DNA from: Marinifilaceae bacterium
GTDB lineage: Bacteria; Bacteroidota; Bacteroidia; Bacteroidales; Marinifilaceae
Assembly (NCBI GenBank): GCA_016744515.1
Contig: JADGEF010000007.1
Coordinates: 1 to 64,000 of the forward strand
Length of the DNA stretch: 64,000 bases
Direction of reading: 5' to 3'
Under the pieces are notes generated by a model. The model was not told the origin of the DNA, made no database searches, and worked only from the letters and a program-made list of their open reading frames with translations. Within the stretch, counting starts at the first letter, position 1, and each line of letters opens with the position of its first letter. The position numbers were made by a program, and so were the translations under genes. Of the stretch, positions 24,042 to 61,340 are shown piece by piece.

Positions 24042-24217
24042 AATTTATTAATTCTTCTATTTAGTTGGTAGCTTTAATTTGACATGCAAAGTAGCAAGAT
24101 TATTCGTTGAAAAATGCTTCTATTGGAATTTTAACAAGAAGTTAAGAAATAAAATCAATGAGGGAATTAGGCTAATTTTAGGCATAAGAAAGAAGTTTTT
24201 TACTTCTCTCTTTTTTG

Positions 24218-24292
24218 TCGGGGTGGCAGGATTCGAACCTGCGACCTCCTCGTCCCAAACGAGGCGCGATGACCGGGCTACGCTACACCCCG
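24218..24292 (-). tRNA. tRNA-Pro(UGG) copy 1
   Basis: Reverse complement CGGGGTGTAGCGTAGCCCGGTCATCGCGCCTCGTTTGGGACGAGGAGGTCGCAGGTTCGAATCCTGCCACCCCGA, anticodon TGG. Confidence 0.95.
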
Positions 24293-24375
24293 AAAATTTA
24301 ATTCCGCTTTTTTTATTGAAAGTTTATTCTCAAAAAGAATAAAAAAGGAGAGACGAATTAATTCTCTCTTCTTTG

Positions 24376-24450
24376 TCGGGGTGGCAGGATTCGAACCTGC
24401 GACCTCCTCGTCCCAAACGAGGCGCGATGACCGGGCTACGCTACACCCCG
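24376..24450 (-). tRNA. tRNA-Pro(UGG) copy 2
   Basis: Identical to copy 1. Confidence 0.95.
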
Positions 24451-24510
24451 AAATAAATTTCGGTACTTTCAACAAAAATGAAGTTTTGCAACTTCTCAAA
24501 TTTCTCGGTG

Positions 24511-24585
24511 TCGGGGTGGCAGGATTCGAACCTGCGACCTCCTCGTCCCAAACGAGGCGCGATAACCGGGCTACGCTACACCCCG
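24511..24585 (-). tRNA. tRNA-Pro(UGG) copy 3
   Basis: Same, with one D-arm difference (GGTTATCG instead of GGTCATCG). Confidence 0.95.
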
Positions 24586-24651
24586 AGAATTTAATTTCAA
24601 CAAATGCGATAAAAAAAGAGAAGTTCTTCAACTTCTCTGGAATTTTCGGTG

Positions 24652-24726
24652 TCGGGGTGGCAGGATTCGAACCTGCGACCTCCTCGTCCCAAACGAGGCG
24701 CGATGACCGGGCTACGCTACACCCCG
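24652..24726 (-). tRNA. tRNA-Pro(UGG) copy 4
   Basis: Identical to copy 1. Confidence 0.95.
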
Positions 24727-24782
24727 AAAATTAAAGTGAAAAGCTTAAACCTTTCACTTTGCAACTCTTCAGTTAAGAAAAG

Positions 24783-24874
<92 letters not shown>

Positions 24875-52185: not shown

Positions 52186-54531
52186 TTACAATCTATTTAA
52201 TTCACTCCCACTTGCTAATTTTTTTCTAATTCCTCCACTGAATCTATTAAAATTGTATTTTATTGAAAATCTCACCCATGTGTTATCAAAGTCTGGAGTC
52301 GAACCGGCAACTATGTTCCCAAACTTATCCTCCCACGAATTGTCTGAGGAATTAAATATATCATTAGCCATAATACTAATGTTCAATTTCTTACTATAAA
52401 AAGAGGTGTTTAAGCCAACAGATAGTTTGTATTTGCTCCCCCAAGCTGTCATTAACTCTTCACTACTGCTAGAATATGAAAAGCTGGCAAAAATATTTGT
52501 TTGATGAGTAATAGAGTAATCATTTTTCGTTTGAAAATACCACGAGGATTTTTTCACCTTTCGTTTATCACCTAAATAAGGAATTTCAATAAAAGGTTTT
52601 GCACCTCCTAAACTAATGATACTGCTAAACTTTTTCAGGGAATAGTTATAATCAATATTTACAAAAACATATTCAGCCTTATTAACATTCACAGGCGTGT
52701 ACTTAATAATATCCTGATTACTTTCATCATTAATTGCACTTAGTATGCGTGCATTTTTCTCATATTTATATCCCATATTAACTGAAATCCCCTTGAACAA
52801 TCCTAATGTGAGATCGACATTGTGGCTTATACTTGGTTTTACTTCAGGATTGCCCACTTTATAGGAAAGCGAATTAAAATAAGTAATATCGGTACTCAAT
52901 TCATCAAAAGTAGGGCGATTGATTTTTTTAGAGTAGCTTAATGTTATATTCTGTTTATCTGAGATCTTTTGATTTATTAAAAATGTCGGAAACCAACTAA
53001 CGTAAGTTGAATCTAATACTATAATTCCATTCGAACTAATATATGTATCGGTGTATTCGTAACGCAAACCTCCTTGCAAACTTAATCTATTAAGCTCCTT
53101 TTTTAATGTAAAATAAGCTGCCGCTATATGATCCTTTATTTGATCTTTTGTTTTATAATTAATCTGATTTGCATCTTGATTCTTTGAACTTACATCACCC
53201 AGATTTTCGACTTTTGATAATTTAATTCCCGATTGAAATTTTATTGATTTGAAAATAGGGCTTTGGTAATCGACTTTACCACTGTAGATATCGTAATCAT
53301 TATGACTATCAATTAAAGTTTTCAATTTGGAATTATTGGTCATATTTTGTTCGTCTATGTCTTCGATTGAGTTATACTTAACTTTTGTATAATCGCCAAC
53401 CGCTGATAATGAACGTAAGCTATCAACAGTGAATTCATAATTCACATTGTAGGTTTGCAAATCATAATCACTATTTTTATCTTTAAAAATACTCCCTTTA
53501 TTTTTTAGCTCATTTGTTCTACTAATATATTGTTCGGCATTCGACTTTTGATTTCTACCATTTGAGATATACGAATATTGAAGTCCAATATTATTTCTCT
53601 TATTGATTTCCTGATTAATACTTGCAAAAAGATTATTCTTTTTTACTGTAGCTTTCCTTATCAAATCCCTCCGATTATCAATCATATAATTATCTTGATT
53701 ATTTATTTCATAAGAATCCTCATAATTTTTTGATTTGATATAGCCATATGAATAATTAACTGATACCCTTGTTTTATTAATTTCACTATTTAACTGTATT
53801 CCATTTATAATGCGAAATTTTCTTGCAAAATAATTTCGATTATAGATTTGTAATTTAAGCTGATCTTTAGTGATTTTCTTTGTTTTGATCCTTAAGACCG
53901 CCTTGCCCGATGCGCTATACTTAGCCGAAGGACTCCGATCGATCTCTATGCTTTCAATATCGTCAGATTGAAAGCTTTCTAATTCTGCCTTATTCTGAAC
54001 TTCCTTATTATTGATAAAAATAATAGGAGTTCCTTTACCAAATACAGTGATATTGTTATCATTATCCACAATCAATCCTGGGCTTCTCTGTAATGCATCA
54101 ATAAGGTCTCCAGCTTGGCTAAGTGAGGTTCCTTTCACATCAATTATTAGCCTTCCTTCGACCTGCTTAAATACTGGCCGTTTCGCTCTTATGACTACCT
54201 CATCCAATTCTAAAGTTTTCATTTGAATAGTTCCAACATCTATGGAACTATTCTCTGAAAAATTAATCAGTCGTTTTACTGTTTGATATCCAACACAGGA
54301 AATCTGCAATATGCACTTAACTTCTTTAATGTTATTAAACTCAACACAACCATCTATAAAAGCACCTCCGGTGATAATACTCAAGTCGGAAGTGTTTAAT
54401 ATTGCAGCTGTAAAATACTCAAGAGACTTATTATTACGATCAATTACCTTACATCTAACATGAGTAGATTGAGAATATAAATTATTGAAATGAAATAACA
54501 AAGTAATAATTATCCAACAGGTTCTTTTCAT
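52186..54531 (-). CDS. TonB-dependent receptor-like outer-membrane beta-barrel protein (OMP_b-brl_3 type)
   Basis: Signal peptide, regulatory-like domain, plug LDEVVIRAKRPVFKQVEGRLIIDVKGTSLSQAGDLIDALQRSPGLIVDNDNNITVFGKGTPIIFINNK. Confidence 0.88.
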   Translation of the reverse strand: MKRTCWIIITLLFHFNNLYSQSTHVRCKVIDRNNKSLEYFTAAILNTSDLSIITGGAFIDGCVEFNNIKEVKCILQISCVGYQTVKRLINFSENSSIDVGTIQMKTLELDEVVIRAKRPVFKQVEGRLIIDVKGTSLSQAGDLIDALQRSPGLIVDNDNNITVFGKGTPIIFINNKEVQNKAELESFQSDDIESIEIDRSPSAKYSASGKAVLRIKTKKITKDQLKLQIYNRNYFARKFRIINGIQLNSEINKTRVSVNYSYGYIKSKNYEDSYEINNQDNYMIDNRRDLIRKATVKKNNLFASINQEINKRNNIGLQYSYISNGRNQKSNAEQYISRTNELKNKGSIFKDKNSDYDLQTYNVNYEFTVDSLRSLSAVGDYTKVKYNSIEDIDEQNMTNNSKLKTLIDSHNDYDIYSGKVDYQSPIFKSIKFQSGIKLSKVENLGDVSSKNQDANQINYKTKDQIKDHIAAAYFTLKKELNRLSLQGGLRYEYTDTYISSNGIIVLDSTYVSWFPTFLINQKISDKQNITLSYSKKINRPTFDELSTDITYFNSLSYKVGNPEVKPSISHNVDLTLGLFKGISVNMGYKYEKNARILSAINDESNQDIIKYTPVNVNKAEYVFVNIDYNYSLKKFSSIISLGGAKPFIEIPYLGDKRKVKKSSWYFQTKNDYSITHQTNIFASFSYSSSSEELMTAWGSKYKLSVGLNTSFYSKKLNISIMANDIFNSSDNSWEDKFGNIVAGSTPDFDNTWVRFSIKYNFNRFSGGIRKKLASGSELNRL

Positions 54532-55832
54532 GCTTCAAGCTTATTTAACTCTTGTTCATAATGCATTTCTAATAGTTTAGGAAGATCCTCAAAATTTATT
54601 GGACAGACATCATAATCTGTACCATTTAACTTATGCTCGTATCTAAAAAGGCTACAACCTCCATCGCATACCGGAAAAAGAGTACATTCTTTGCATTTGG
54701 AATCGTTAAACATATCTGTTCCTACCATATATTCTGATAAAATGCTATAATTATATTCATCAGAAAAAATATTTCCTACAATGCGATCTTCTTTTCCTAA
54801 ATCTACCCAACATTTATATAATTCGCCACTTGGACCAACAACAAAACTGTTTATATAATCTGCTGTACATCCGATATCTTTAGGTTCTAGATAAAATTTA
54901 ACATCTTTAATTCCATATTTGAAATGAAGATTTTTAAAAAAAGTAATACGTTCTTTATGTTTTAAACATTTAACTTTGCATCCACCATGATCCGCAACAA
55001 TAGCCATATGAATACTAAGATTCTTATGTTCCCATCTTTTAGACAACATTGAATAAAGTTGGTGAAAGTCTTTTTCATTTTCTTTATGAAGATTAATACG
55101 TATTTTCACATGACATTCTGGGATAATTTCTGTCAAAATATCAATATTCTCAACAATTATATTGAATGTTGGAATTCCTGACTTATGTTTTCTGCTTTTA
55201 TTATGAGTATCTGGTAAACCATCAATAGTTATTTGAACTGAATCAAGGTTGTGTTCTTTTAGTTCATTACATTTTTCTTTATCTAGTAGAAATCCGTTTG
55301 TAACTAAATTATGAGAATCTAATTTAATTTTCTTTGACCTTTTGATTTTATTAAGAATATCAATCATAGTGTCAAATGCTAATAATGGTTCTCCTCCATG
55401 CCAGCATAAACTTAAACTCCCAAATCTGCTATTAGATTCAATATATTCAAGAAGTTTATTTTGCACTTCTTTACTCATTGTGTTAGTTGCAAGATCGGAC
55501 TCATAACAGTAAGGACAGGCAAAATTACAAGCCATCGTAGGAGCTATTACTATTCCAAAATTAGATTTAGAGAAGCATTTGTGGTATTTTAAAAATTTCC
55601 GTTGAATATAAAAATTATCATCTTCATTATTAGATACAAATACATGTGAATTTTGAAGAGCTTTGAGAATCTTCTTATCAATGGTTTTAATCAGATTAGG
55701 ATTATTTTTACACTCTTTTAAGTTATGAAATAGTCTTTCACTAATTTTTAAAAATGAATTTGTTCTGGAGTTATAGATAAAATATCCATATTTTGCCGAA
55801 TCCATCAAGTAATTGTATCTTGAAAATTGCAT
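54528..55832 (-). CDS. radical SAM/SPASM peptide maturase 1
   Basis: APTMACNFACPYCYESD; LSLCWHGGEPLLAF; SPASM CKECTLFPVCDGGC. Confidence 0.95.
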   Translation of the reverse strand: MQFSRYNYLMDSAKYGYFIYNSRTNSFLKISERLFHNLKECKNNPNLIKTIDKKILKALQNSHVFVSNNEDDNFYIQRKFLKYHKCFSKSNFGIVIAPTMACNFACPYCYESDLATNTMSKEVQNKLLEYIESNSRFGSLSLCWHGGEPLLAFDTMIDILNKIKRSKKIKLDSHNLVTNGFLLDKEKCNELKEHNLDSVQITIDGLPDTHNKSRKHKSGIPTFNIIVENIDILTEIIPECHVKIRINLHKENEKDFHQLYSMLSKRWEHKNLSIHMAIVADHGGCKVKCLKHKERITFFKNLHFKYGIKDVKFYLEPKDIGCTADYINSFVVGPSGELYKCWVDLGKEDRIVGNIFSDEYNYSILSEYMVGTDMFNDSKCKECTLFPVCDGGCSLFRYEHKLNGTDYDVCPINFEDLPKLLEMHYEQELNKLEA

Positions 55833-55900
55833 TTTTTAATTTTATTAAGTTGAGTAAAAAGGAGTTTATCTTATAATAAGATAAACTCCTTTTATTTAAT

Positions 55901-56089
55901 TTACCAAGCTGAAATAACTTTATTGTAAATAGAACGAGTCCCTCCACGTCTGCATAAATCGGCCGAAGAATCTGAACCATCTTTACAATAAAGAACATGA
56001 TCTTCCTTTCCTCCTCTAATATTTTTTAGTTCTTTTGTCAATATATCAATAGGAGCAACTACTATTTTAATGTCTGTTATTTTTTTCAT
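55901..56089 (-). CDS. GG-leader precursor peptide SAW-3
   Basis: MKKITDIKIVVAPIDILTKELKNIRGG|KEDHVLYCKDGSDSSADLCRRGGTRSIYNKVISAW. Confidence 0.9.
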   Translation of the reverse strand: MKKITDIKIVVAPIDILTKELKNIRGGKEDHVLYCKDGSDSSADLCRRGGTRSIYNKVISAW

Positions 56090-56133
56090 CGTGATTTTTT
56101 TTAAGATTAAAAATATTTTTCATAGAGCTCCTT

Positions 56134-56306
56134 TCCTTTTGCAATTGCAAAATTCACCTCTTTCTATGAGCATTGTACTTGCATACAGGGAGTTTCAGCT
56201 ACTATTGCCTCCTCCGGTAGAGGGTGGATATATTCTTATTTGTAATCCAGGGAGGCCAATTTCCTAAATTAGTTTTACCTAGAATGTGTATTGTTGTTTT
56301 ATTCAT
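56134..56306 (-). repeat. duplicated leader element, copy 1
   Basis: Homologous to 58152-58320; contains ORF MNKTTIHILGKTNLGNWPPWITNKNISTLYRRRQ and inverted repeat GCCTCC/GGAGGC. Confidence 0.85.
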
Positions 56307-56350
56307 GATCTATTGATTTTTTTCTAAATACTTATCATTTGATTATATGT

Positions 56351-57649
56351 TTATTTTTTCTTTAATTGTTGCTCATAATGTAACTCTAAAAGCATTGGAA
56401 GATCATCTACATCAATAGGGCAAACATTATACTCAGTCCCATTCAATTTATGTTCATATCTAAAAAGGTTACAACCACCATCACAAACAGGAAACAGAAC
56501 ACATTCTTTACATTTAGGATCATTAAATATGTCTGTTCCCATCATATATTCAGCTAATAACTCCTGATTGAAATCATTACTTGATATATGTCCTATAGTA
56601 CGGTCTTCTTTTCCTAAATCAACCCAACATTTATATAATTCTCCTTGTGGTCCAATAATAAATGTGTTATCAAAATCTGCTGTACAAGCAACATTCTTTG
56701 GTGTTAAATAAAAATTAACATTCTCAATTTTGTGATCTAAATGTAGATCCTTGTAAAAACTCACTCGTTCTCTAAGTTTTAAACATTTAACTTTACAACC
56801 GCCATGATCTGTTGTAAAGGATGGATTAATTGTTATATTTGGATTGTTCCATCTACTAGATAATTCCTCATATAGTTTTGGAAAGTCATTTTCATTTTTT
56901 TTATGAATATTCACACGAATATTTATATGAATATCATTTAATATTCGTTGTGCATGATCTATATTTTCAAGTATTTTTTTAAATGTTGGTAGTCCTGATT
57001 TGTGGATCCTACTTTTATTATGCGTTTCTTCTAAACCATCAATTGTAATTTGTACATAATCAAGTTTGTATTTTTTGAGTATCATACAAGTTTCTTCATC
57101 TAGAAGATATCCATTTGTCACCAAATTATGTTGTCCAATATTTATTTCTTTAGAATCAAAAACTTGAGTCAAGATATTCTGCATCGCTTCAAATGCCATA
57201 AGAGGTTCTCCTCCATGCCAAGTTAAATTTACTGAGTCAATACCTTTGAATGATTCAATAAAATCAACAATTTTATTTTGTATTGAAACTTCCATTTTTG
57301 TTGGTGGCAAATCTGATTCATAACAATAAGGACATGCAAAATTACATGCTATTGTTGGAGCAATGACAATCCCCAAATTAGATTTAGATAAACATTTCTT
57401 GTATTTAATGTATTTCTTTTGGTTAAAGAAATTCTCATCATCTGTTCTATTAACTAGTATTTTGGCTTGTTTTAACGATGACATTGTATCCTGATCTAAA
57501 TCACTGAATGAAGATGATGAATCTTTTAACAATTCTAGTGTTGTATAAAGGCCTTCATCTATTCTAAGAAAAGAATTTGTTCTTGAGTTATAAATAAAGT
57601 GACCATATTTACTCGAATTAAATTGATAATTATATTTAGAATATATCAT
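56351..57649 (-). CDS. radical SAM/SPASM peptide maturase 2
   Basis: APTIACNFACPYCYESD; NLTWHGGEPLMAF; CKECVLFPVCDGGC; strongly similar to maturase 1. Confidence 0.95.
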   Translation of the reverse strand: MIYSKYNYQFNSSKYGHFIYNSRTNSFLRIDEGLYTTLELLKDSSSSFSDLDQDTMSSLKQAKILVNRTDDENFFNQKKYIKYKKCLSKSNLGIVIAPTIACNFACPYCYESDLPPTKMEVSIQNKIVDFIESFKGIDSVNLTWHGGEPLMAFEAMQNILTQVFDSKEINIGQHNLVTNGYLLDEETCMILKKYKLDYVQITIDGLEETHNKSRIHKSGLPTFKKILENIDHAQRILNDIHINIRVNIHKKNENDFPKLYEELSSRWNNPNITINPSFTTDHGGCKVKCLKLRERVSFYKDLHLDHKIENVNFYLTPKNVACTADFDNTFIIGPQGELYKCWVDLGKEDRTIGHISSNDFNQELLAEYMMGTDIFNDPKCKECVLFPVCDGGCNLFRYEHKLNGTEYNVCPIDVDDLPMLLELHYEQQLKKK

Positions 57650-57756
57650 TTATTGGGATGTTTTAATTAAGAAGCTATCTCTAATTTTGAGATAGCTTCT
57701 TTTCTATTAAAAAAATCTTGCTTCCACATTTGAATCTAAAACAAGATCTGTTTATT

Positions 57757-57918
57757 TTACCATGCAGAAAAACTCGTCTTCTCGGTTACTATTTTCCCTG
57801 AATTGCACCCATCTGTACAATCACTATCCACAGGAGCACTATAACCACCTTTAATATGCTCTAATTCTTCATTTAAGATATCCTGTGGCTCTACAACAAT
57901 TTCTAATATTTTTTTCAT
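57757..57918 (-). CDS. GG-leader precursor peptide SAW-2 (not in ORF track)
   Basis: MKKILEIVVEPQDILNEELEHIKGG|YSAPVDSDCTDGCNSGKIVTEKTSFSAW. Confidence 0.92.
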   Translation of the reverse strand: MKKILEIVVEPQDILNEELEHIKGGYSAPVDSDCTDGCNSGKIVTEKTSFSAW

Positions 57919-57946
57919 TTTTCTTGATTTTTAATATAAATTAATA

Positions 57947-58108
57947 TTACCACGCAGACAGCTCAAGCTTTCCTGTAGTTATCTTCCCATTATTGCATCC
58001 ATCAGTGCAATCACTATCAATAGGAGCATTATAACCACCTTTAATATGCTCTAATTCTTCATTTAAGATATCCTGTGGCTCTACAACAATTTCTAATATT
58101 TTTTTCAT
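57947..58108 (-). CDS. GG-leader precursor peptide SAW-1 (not in ORF track)
   Basis: MKKILEIVVEPQDILNEELEHIKGG|YNAPIDSDCTDGCNNGKITTGKLELSAW. Confidence 0.92.
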   Translation of the reverse strand: MKKILEIVVEPQDILNEELEHIKGGYNAPIDSDCTDGCNNGKITTGKLELSAW

Positions 58109-58151
58109 AATATTCTTATTACTACTTATTTAATTAAAAAAGTTATCCATT

Positions 58152-58320
58152 CCTTTTACAATTGGCAATTGCAAAACTCCCCCCTATGCAGTAGCTTTGT
58201 CCTCACTTACAGGTAGTTTTAGCTACTATAGCCGCCTCCGGTAGAGAATGGATACTATTCATGTGTAATCCGGGGCGGCTATTTTCCTAAGTTATTCTTT
58301 CCTAAAAAGTGAATTGTCAT
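58152..58320 (-). repeat. duplicated leader element, copy 2
   Basis: Homologous to 56134-56306; ORF MTIHFLGKNNLGK and inverted repeat GCCGCC/GGCGGC. Confidence 0.85.
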
Positions 58321-58362
58321 ATCAATTAGATTAATTTTTCTACTTAGTCACATTCTTTTCTA

Positions 58363-58511
58363 TTACACATATACTCTCACCTCTTTCCCATCAATAACAA
58401 CGATAACAACGATAACGTAATCTCTTCTTTCTCCACCCTTTGTTAGGGTTAATTCCTTTTGGCTTAATATCTCAATCGCTTACTATTTTTTCCCATTTTC
58501 ATAACTTCCAT
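58363..58511 (-). pseudogene. frameshifted GG-leader peptide, second family
   Basis: Reads ...IEILSQKELTLTKGG|ERRDYVIVVIVVIDGKEVRVYV after a 1-nt correction. Confidence 0.75.
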
Positions 58512-58628
58512 CTTTAATAAAAGACAAGGCTACCAAGACAATTGTATAAAAATTCATAAACTACAACTCCTTAATACTCAAAACCAATCTTTTTATGTAG
58601 CCTCATCATTCAAATACCATAAGGATTA

Positions 58629-58760
58629 CTACACATATATCCTCACCTCTTCTCCATCAATAATAACGATAACATAATCTCTATTCTCTCCACCTTTCAC
58701 TAAGGTTAATTCGTTTCGGCTTAATTCCTCAATCGCTTTGCTGCTCTTTCTTGTTTTCAT
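58629..58760 (-). CDS. GG-leader peptide, second family (not in ORF track)
   Basis: MKTRKSSKAIEELSRNELTLVKGG|ENRDYVIVIIDGEEVRIYV. Confidence 0.82.
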   Translation of the reverse strand: MKTRKSSKAIEELSRNELTLVKGGENRDYVIVIIDGEEVRIYV

Positions 58761-58845
58761 GATTTCTACTTGTTATAAAGTGAATTATTCATTTTAAACT
58801 TCCTTGAAGTTAAAACCTCAAATCTTAAAAAACGATTAGCTTTAT

Positions 58846-59050
58846 GATTAGAAACCTAATCAAACAGCAGACAGTTTTCTAATCAAAAACAAGCAAAACA
58901 ATTACTTTTAAATAAAAATCAGGTGCAAATAAAATAGGATACAGAGAACACAACTCAGTATTAATCGGGCATGATTGAGTTTATTATCTTTCTAATCGCA
59001 ATATTCGATTACAATTTGATTAGAAAAGTCAGTCTGTTTTGATTAGAAAA
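58846..59050. promoter_or_regulatory. cluster of GATTAGAAA / TTTCTAATC motifs
   Basis: GATTAGAAACCTAATC 58846-58861; TTTTCTAATC 58875; TTTCTAATC 58989; GATTAGAAAA 59018; GATTAGAAAA 59041. Confidence 0.6.
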
Positions 59051-59232
59051 AGAGCATTCTTTTTTGACAAAAAATACAATTTAGAATTGTTCTAATGGAG
59101 GGAGCATTATTTTTTCATGAAAAGAAACATATCTTTATTTTATGAAACGTCCATGACGTAAAACTTTTCGCACACAAGGAAATGATTATATGGTAAGTTC
59201 CATATGGCAACTAAAAAACAAATTATAATCAT

Positions 59233-60615
59233 ATGAAAAGCAACTTATTCAAACGAATTGGAATAGCGGCAATACTAATACTAAGCATACTTGTTGGTTC
59301 GCAAGGACTGTGGTTGTGGCAACAGTTGGAGCAAGAGAAACAAACTTTTGCATTGAAGATAGAAAACGCCTTACAAGGCATGATAAATTTTCATGCTTTA
59401 CAAGGCTATAGTTCTACTGATTCTACAAAACCAAACGTGGCTACTATTTCAATGGAAGAACCAACAAATGAAGAAAAAAACAAAGATACTACAGATGCAT
59501 TGGGGAAATTTGATATCAGCACAAAAAAATACATTCCTAATTTTGCTTTAGGAAAACTTATAGAAGCCTCATTTACAGACAAAAGTTTGTCGAATGGTGA
59601 ATTCAAAATAAAAACTGTTGACTCATTATTTATTAGCAACTTTCCCGATTATGAAAAAATAACAAGCTATCGCCTACAATTTTTAAAAAACGAAAAGATC
59701 ACAGATAGCCTATCTCATGGAGAGATGAGTAATAAATCGTTAACAGGCTCTCCTTCAACTATACACTTACAACTACCTCTGGGTACAAAAGGAAGCTATG
59801 TTTTGGCTGCTGATTTTCAGTTGGAAACTTTGCCTTTTTTACGACAAATGGTATTTTCAATAGGTATATCGGCACTCGCTATTATTTTAGTTGCTTTTTT
59901 TATGCTATGGCTCTTGTGGGCATTGCAACGACAAATATCACAGTTACAATGGCGAGAACGAGCCGTAAGTGGTATTGTGCACGATTTAAAATCGCCCCTA
60001 TCCTATGTCTATACCTTTTTAGATTATCTGGCAAGTAAGGAACAGCAGCCTGCAATGCAGAGACAACTTGCAAGTGCAAGTACCAATATCTCCAAATTGA
60101 CCCATAAAATGGATGTTCTACTAACATTATTCCGTTCAAAGAAGAAAAAAATTGTCATCGAGCCTGCTCCCTACAATTTGGCGCAAAAGTGCAGAGAGTT
60201 ACTATCGGAACTGGAAGTCATTTATCAAGAAAAGAAAGTTGTATTCAAGCTATCTATTCCCGATGACTTAAAAATCAATGTAGATCCTCTTTATTTCGAT
60301 GCTGCCTTGCGTAATTTGTTAGATAATGCATTGAAATATTCTGACACACCTGCAAAATTGACCATTACATCAATAGCAAAACAAAAAGGGTTATACATTT
60401 GTATTGCAGATTCAGGTAAAGGCATTCCTAAAAATGAACAAAAGAAAATCTTTCAAGAATTCTACCGTACTGACAACAACAGCAAAGGACATGGTATTGG
60501 ATTGGCTTTTACCCAACAGATAATAAAAGCCCATAAAGGACGTATTAGTTTAGAAAGTGAAATTGGAAAAGGAAGTACATTTTGTATTATTTTGCCTACC
60601 TCAACAATAGTGTAA
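59233..60615 (+). CDS. sensor histidine kinase
   Basis: Two TM segments; VSGIVHDLKSPLSYV H-box; NLLDNALKYS; SGKGIPKNEQKKIFQEFYR; GIGLAF. Confidence 0.95.
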   Translation: MKSNLFKRIGIAAILILSILVGSQGLWLWQQLEQEKQTFALKIENALQGMINFHALQGYSSTDSTKPNVATISMEEPTNEEKNKDTTDALGKFDISTKKYIPNFALGKLIEASFTDKSLSNGEFKIKTVDSLFISNFPDYEKITSYRLQFLKNEKITDSLSHGEMSNKSLTGSPSTIHLQLPLGTKGSYVLAADFQLETLPFLRQMVFSIGISALAIILVAFFMLWLLWALQRQISQLQWRERAVSGIVHDLKSPLSYVYTFLDYLASKEQQPAMQRQLASASTNISKLTHKMDVLLTLFRSKKKKIVIEPAPYNLAQKCRELLSELEVIYQEKKVVFKLSIPDDLKINVDPLYFDAALRNLLDNALKYSDTPAKLTITSIAKQKGLYICIADSGKGIPKNEQKKIFQEFYRTDNNSKGHGIGLAFTQQIIKAHKGRISLESEIGKGSTFCIILPTSTIV

Positions 60616-60629
60616 TTGCAAATTAGAAA

Positions 60630-61340
<711 letters not shown>

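Follow-up and report, generated by a model that had tools for sequence, protein, structure and literature searches.

RiPP operons need the precursor peptide far above the enzyme that modifies it, and stem-loops are known between the precursor and enzyme genes of such operons; the arrangement in Bacteroidota is little known. The closest described RNA is HMP2_1881, a candidate structured RNA of 108 bp from human gut Bacteroidetes, which Fremin and Bhatt describe as often near radical SAM domains and as expressed all 13 times that it was found in their assemblies (PMC8040213). Literature searches beyond HMP2_1881, with a scope mostly outside subscription journals, returned nothing closer.

The window analysed here (the whole stretch of 64,000 nt from a Marinifilaceae bacterium) contains a duplicated element of ~170 bp, which a sequence-only reading had placed directly upstream of two sets of precursor genes. 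Both copies are indeed found at these sites on the minus strand (Table 1), and they match at 78% over ~157 nt (E = 1.7e-28). Copy 1 lies within an apparent operon, 45 nt past a maturase gene. Since the two maturases share 58% identity from end to end, the leader–precursor–maturase cassette was most likely duplicated as a whole, which would be the source of both copies. Beyond maturase 2 there are genes for an outer-membrane receptor-like protein, a peptidase-type ABC transporter and an HlyD-like protein. Several other features were observed in the window: the OmpR-type response regulator encoded beside the locus contains a run of ~eleven glutamines; a precursor of another type (ending in VKGGENRDYVIVIIDGEEVRIYV; 58629-58760, minus strand), which precedes kinase-linked elements in several genomes, has no leader RNA itself, and its end recurs in degenerate form near 58340-58460; and four consecutive tRNA-Pro(tgg) genes lie beside a tRNA-Ser(gct) gene at 24217-24874 (minus strand).

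Table 1. Positions of the leader RNA copies, their predicted parts and the neighbouring genes in the window
Feature	Position	Strand	Details
Histidine kinase, then OmpR-type response regulator	kinase 59233-60615; both 59233-61340	+	divergent, adjoining the locus
Leader RNA copy 2	58320-58146	-	upstream of first precursor set
Copy 2 short upstream ORF	58279-58320	-	MTIHFLGKNNLGK, then stop; TAG stop ends at first P1 base; frame kept in histidine-kinase-linked homologues
Copy 2 P1 and loop	58231-58279	-	58279-58270 GCCGCCCCGG with 58241-58231 CCGGAGGCGGC; compensatory pairs
Copy 2 strand S in P1 loop	58253-58243	-	ATCCATTCTCT
Copy 2 pseudoknot	58181-58247	-	58247-58243 (TCTCT) with 58185-58181 (AGGGG)
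Copy 2 P2	58190-58227	-	X 58227-58221 AGTAGCT with Y1 58217-58213 or Y2 58196-58190 AGCTACT
Copy 2 hairpin P4	58154-58176	-	TTTTGCAATT-GCC-AATTGTAAAA
Copy 2 purine-rich tail	58146-58153	-	GGAATGGA; could pair with strand S instead of the pseudoknot (weak, z -2.0)
GG-leader RiPP precursor	57947-58108	-	directly 3' of copy 2; TIGR04149-like, below cut-off
Second GG-leader precursor	57757-57918	-	same set as the first
13-bp stem-loop	57669-57701	-	between precursors and radical SAM gene 1
Radical SAM/SPASM peptide maturase 1	56351-57649	-	
Leader RNA copy 1	56306-56129	-	upstream of second precursor set
Copy 1 short upstream ORF	56202-56306	-	MNKTTIHILGKTNLGNWPPWITNKNISTLYRRRQ, then stop
Copy 1 P1 and loop	56207-56256	-	56256-56247 GCCTCCCTGG with 56217-56207 CCGGAGGAGGC
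Copy 1 pseudoknot	56157-56223	-	56223-56219 (CCTCT) with 56161-56157 (AGAGG)
Copy 1 hairpin P4 and tail	56129-56152	-	TTTTGC-AATT-GCAAAA; tail GGAAAGGA
GG-leader-like precursor	55901-56089	-	3' of copy 1
17-bp stem-loop	55857-55893	-	between precursor and radical SAM gene 2
Radical SAM/SPASM peptide maturase 2	54528-55832	-	

At the DNA level, five other genomes among 100 relatives searched carry the element. A first covariance model, built on seven copies, recovered 27 places, which lie in 16 of 60 Marinifilaceae genomes; a second (22 copies, core only) recovered 29 places in 17 genomes, belonging to seven of the 17 Marinifilaceae genera, including Ancylomarina (the genus of the window), Labilibaculum and Marinifilum. 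27 of these 29 places are strong matches (>60 bits), all of them in Marinifilaceae; L029 and L044 are one and the same locus. Five loci were reached only by the second model, and in these the fold is kept and the gene context mostly kept. In one locus (L092, 2374-2602) the element is apparently split by an insertion, and its 3' part (model positions 86-126) recurs ~60 nt further on.

Searches outside Marinifilaceae were of limited sensitivity. A tight sequence pattern searched against 84,980 species gave confirmed matches in Marinifilaceae only, an order-wide pattern search gave no confirmed relative, and an order-wide model search confirmed none of the best eight candidates per genome (a weak negative). 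Sequence matches in Muribaculaceae, Nostoc and Chlamydiae, as well as the order-wide pattern matches, failed under the covariance model, and viral contigs had no match to the element. Rfam 15 has no match to 54000-60000 of the window up to an E-value of 1; for 15 homologous loci it gave five weak matches, all below the gathering score and either lying outside the element or hitting families from other phyla. The RNA family is apparently undescribed; it and HMP2_1881, set beside it by description, may or may not belong to the same family.

The core of the element is well supported as a folded RNA of ~125 nt, extending from a stem (P1) to a purine-rich tail. P1 has ten pairs and one bulged A. 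Its outer part is the inverted repeat noticed earlier: GCCTCC/GGAGGC with a loop of 38 nt in copy 1 (56256-56251 with 56212-56207) and GCCGCC/GGCGGC with a loop of 37 nt in copy 2 (58279-58274 with 58236-58231), with the replacement of a T-A by a G-C pair borne out; past the single bulged A the stem goes on for four more pairs (CTGG/CCGG in copy 1, CCGG/CCGG in copy 2). A strand in the P1 loop (S) has the consensus AUCCRUYCUCW, and the 3' half of this strand makes a pseudoknot with WGARR, which lies ~60 nt downstream. P2 is formed by strand X (RGUAGCU), which has two alternative AGCUAC partners, Y1 near and Y2 farther away; in copy 1 the P2 partner strands are degenerate. A hairpin (P4) precedes the tail, and the conserved stretches GCAAA, UAAA and AUCC are unpaired and next to the pseudoknot.

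Several tests of covariation bear on this fold, with compensatory changes in favour of P1, the pseudoknot and P4. P1, the pseudoknot, local P2 and P4 have standard pairs in 92.7% of cells, with two-sided changes in 67 cells (26 in shuffles), and the signal is lost on sliding the partners. In the pseudoknot, each of the 22 sequences has a canonical pair at columns 38/106 (UA 11, CG 10, UG 1). When all 7626 column pairs are ranked under a tree-based null, canonical pairs from P4, P1 and the pseudoknot hold the first two places and three of the first four; with correction for all pairs over 27 related sequences these three have E-values of 0.25, 0.32 and 4.75 (none significant), and the top column pairs would reach significance if counted against the ~30 proposed pairs alone. 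The z values of a partner-swap test, which ignores relatedness among the sequences, are -7.7 for P1, -4.3 for the pseudoknot, -4.2 for distal P2 (X:Y2) and -5.2 for P4. Local P2 (X:Y1) is kept and nearly invariant, having too little variation for this test; in two loci (L083 and L091) a change in X is met by changes in both Y1 and Y2, which hints that both P2 pairings are maintained. In several copies the tail could pair strongly with the P1 loop on energetic grounds; the covariation of this pairing is weak (z -2.0), so we retain it only as a possibility. A divergent copy from another genome (L108), left out of the building set of the second model, has a 13-bp P1 and a 7-bp pseudoknot of differing sequence, AACCUCA/UGAGGUU (read by eye). 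Single sequences fold only moderately better than shuffled ones (z from -0.2 to -2.7).

The strand also leaves a trace in the pairs: on the strand of the downstream gene, P4 has 40 G-U versus two A-C cells, and P1 has 15 A-C versus six G-U cells; overall, the strand of the downstream gene is favoured as the sense strand. Two further structures were considered and rejected. A general stem just 5' of P1 (P0), proposed because many loci have inverted repeats at that site, has a mean folding z of -0.3, no better than controls. The nested pairings also brought to mind a ribozyme, HDV-like or other, but there is no Rfam match and the topology is different.

Nearly all strong elements shortly precede a short precursor-like gene. 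Most of these genes encode GG-leader peptides, whose partners are radical SAM, LanC-like or others, while four encode signal-peptide peptides; the exception is one strong element before a gene for a 464-aa protein. Conserved structure with compensatory change, together with a constant placement upstream of a single functional class of genes, is consistent with a structured cis-regulatory leader, and the leader RNA that the sequence-only reading had offered as one option is supported by homologues with compensatory pairs and a pseudoknot. That reading had also offered an attenuator. The element stops tens of nucleotides short of the start codon, and in the window the interval from each element to its gene showed no terminator-like hairpin, so neither classical attenuation of the terminator type nor direct occlusion of the start codon fits.

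The precursors are usually followed, before the enzyme gene, by a 10-17-bp stem-loop. Defined strictly (a contiguous stem of at least 10 pairs within 65 nt), a stem-loop follows the precursor set in 18 out of 25 loci, compared with 21 out of 167 other genes and three out of 324 random windows; the strict test misses stem-loops in a few more loci, the first set of the window among them. With the leader RNA on the 5' side and the stem-loop on the 3' side, the precursor message is usually bracketed. The element is not obligatory, as three of the 11 related radical SAM cassettes are without it. A sigma-70 promoter scan, using a model that fits Bacteroidota poorly, found no more sites than in shuffles.

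Many elements of Marinifilum and Labilibaculum are preceded, ~95-130 nt upstream, by a gene for a 65-aa HTH-like protein (L085, L088, L093, L097, L099, L105 and others), whose Pfam matches are below cut-off. A terminator-like hairpin (ctgccatttttggcag) follows this gene, and palindromes such as AATGCGCATT, AATACGTATT or AATGTACATT are found just before P1 in this subgroup; these could be a candidate site for the HTH-like protein.

Both copies begin with a short ORF, as noted earlier (MNKTTIHILGKTNLGNWPP... at 56306-56202, and MTIHFLGKNNLGK with its stop at 58320-58279). In loci linked to the histidine kinase, the frame with the motif LGKNNLGK has an in-frame ATG and no stop in 10 out of 10 loci resolved by script (and in an eleventh by eye), and the other two frames have an in-frame ATG in two out of 20 cases. 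The position of the ATG differs among loci; these represent about six lineages, so the ATG count is not one of independent events. Most changes in the motif are at third codon positions (GGN in all four forms, AAR, AAY), a pattern that supports translation of a short peptide in this subgroup, window included. The ORF stops at or within the 5' strand of P1 or immediately past it, and the DNA that encodes the LGKNNLGK motif has exact matches at the kinase-linked loci only. The remaining subgroups have no consistent upstream ORF, which leaves the peptide outside the core: the leader peptide proposed earlier is supported next to the histidine-kinase gene, with an in-frame ATG in every lineage and third-position variation, but not for the rest of the family. 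Of the differences once read as synonymous, those in LGKNNLGK do follow the third-position pattern, but CCT/CCG is the compensated T-A/G-C pair of P1. The frame-corrected reading to YPxSTGGGxSS exists too, but it is a by-product of the RNA (the translation of the conserved P1 loop, the 3' strand of P1 and the 5' strand of P2, X) and has no frame in more distant homologues.

Comparison of the homologues establishes the predicted fold, its site just before the precursor start codon, the sense strand and the usual 3' stem-loop. Most likely, the leader controls the stability or translation of the precursor mRNA, by a mechanism that we infer. Our leading reading, which we would put at slightly better than even, is a cis-acting pseudoknotted 5'-leader RNA of the mRNAs for RiPP and related small secreted peptide precursors in Marinifilaceae, acting by bracketing and switching. 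The folded leader and the 3' stem-loop would bracket the precursor message, so that more of it than of the downstream enzyme message would be retained and probably also translated. With X pairing to Y1 or Y2, and S to the pseudoknot strand or the 3' tail, the leader could switch state. In the kinase-linked subgroup, a ribosome that reaches the end of the LGKNNLGK ORF would cover the 5' strand of P1 and open the stem, perhaps coupling the state of the leader to translation of the short ORF. A more speculative version, which we would expect to be wrong rather than right, is a two-state switch of mutually exclusive helices common to the precursors of unrelated RiPP classes, gated in one lineage by translation of the upstream peptide and in others by a different input, with an output independent of the modifying enzyme.

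If, on the other hand, the fold simply protected or defined the 5' end of the precursor message, as a constitutive stabiliser or processing end without switching, then stem-loops also 3' of the precursors, the place of copy 1 inside an apparent operon and the near invariance of local P2 would be expected; compensatory change in distal P2 and the pseudoknot speaks against such an unlikely role, for which such sequence conservation and a second partner strand are not obviously needed. It is improbable that the element is a metabolite- or peptide-sensing riboswitch, in which the pseudoknot with GCAAA, UAAA and AUCC would form a ligand pocket and the alternative pairings would relay binding to precursor translation: conserved unpaired nucleotides lie beside the pseudoknot, the alternative partner strands co-vary in two loci, and one RNA is common to precursors of unrelated RiPP classes, but the gene context points to no ligand, the element ends tens of nucleotides upstream of the coding start with no terminator, and no Rfam riboswitch matches. 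We give very little credence to a DNA-level signal (a regulator binding site, recombination site or single-strand DNA hairpin), to which the palindromes of the HTH-linked subgroup and the upstream motif of the kinase subgroup could belong, because position and orientation before precursor genes are fixed and P4 has the sense-strand G-U excess, though P1 has the reverse. Finally, two decayed copies of a third precursor family, as once proposed from YPxSTGGGxSS (readable in both copies of the window with a one-base shift and stops) and compatible with LGKNNLGK being kept in one subgroup, have next to no chance of being the explanation, as a long intact ORF across the element is absent from every homologue and distant homologues retain the pairings, with different bases, while the corresponding frame goes.

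As a cis-acting leader, a conserved RNA common to radical SAM, LanC-linked and NVEALA-like peptide loci would offer a handle on precursor control, a marker for unannotated peptide precursors and a candidate new class of regulatory RNA. Set beside known systems, it was found only in Marinifilaceae, and there in only seven of 17 genera, whereas HMP2_1881 is described from gut Bacteroidetes. The element resembles trp/his-type leader-peptide attenuators in having alternative pairings and, in the kinase-linked subgroup, a short ORF that ends on a stem; unlike these, it has no terminator hairpin before the gene, its ORF does not repeat a single regulated amino acid, and the ORF is missing from most members of the family. 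The intergenic stem-loops of RiPP operons have their counterpart in the stem-loop after the precursor in the window and in most homologues, whereas the pseudoknotted element precedes the precursor, and is a sequence-conserved RNA rather than a simple hairpin.
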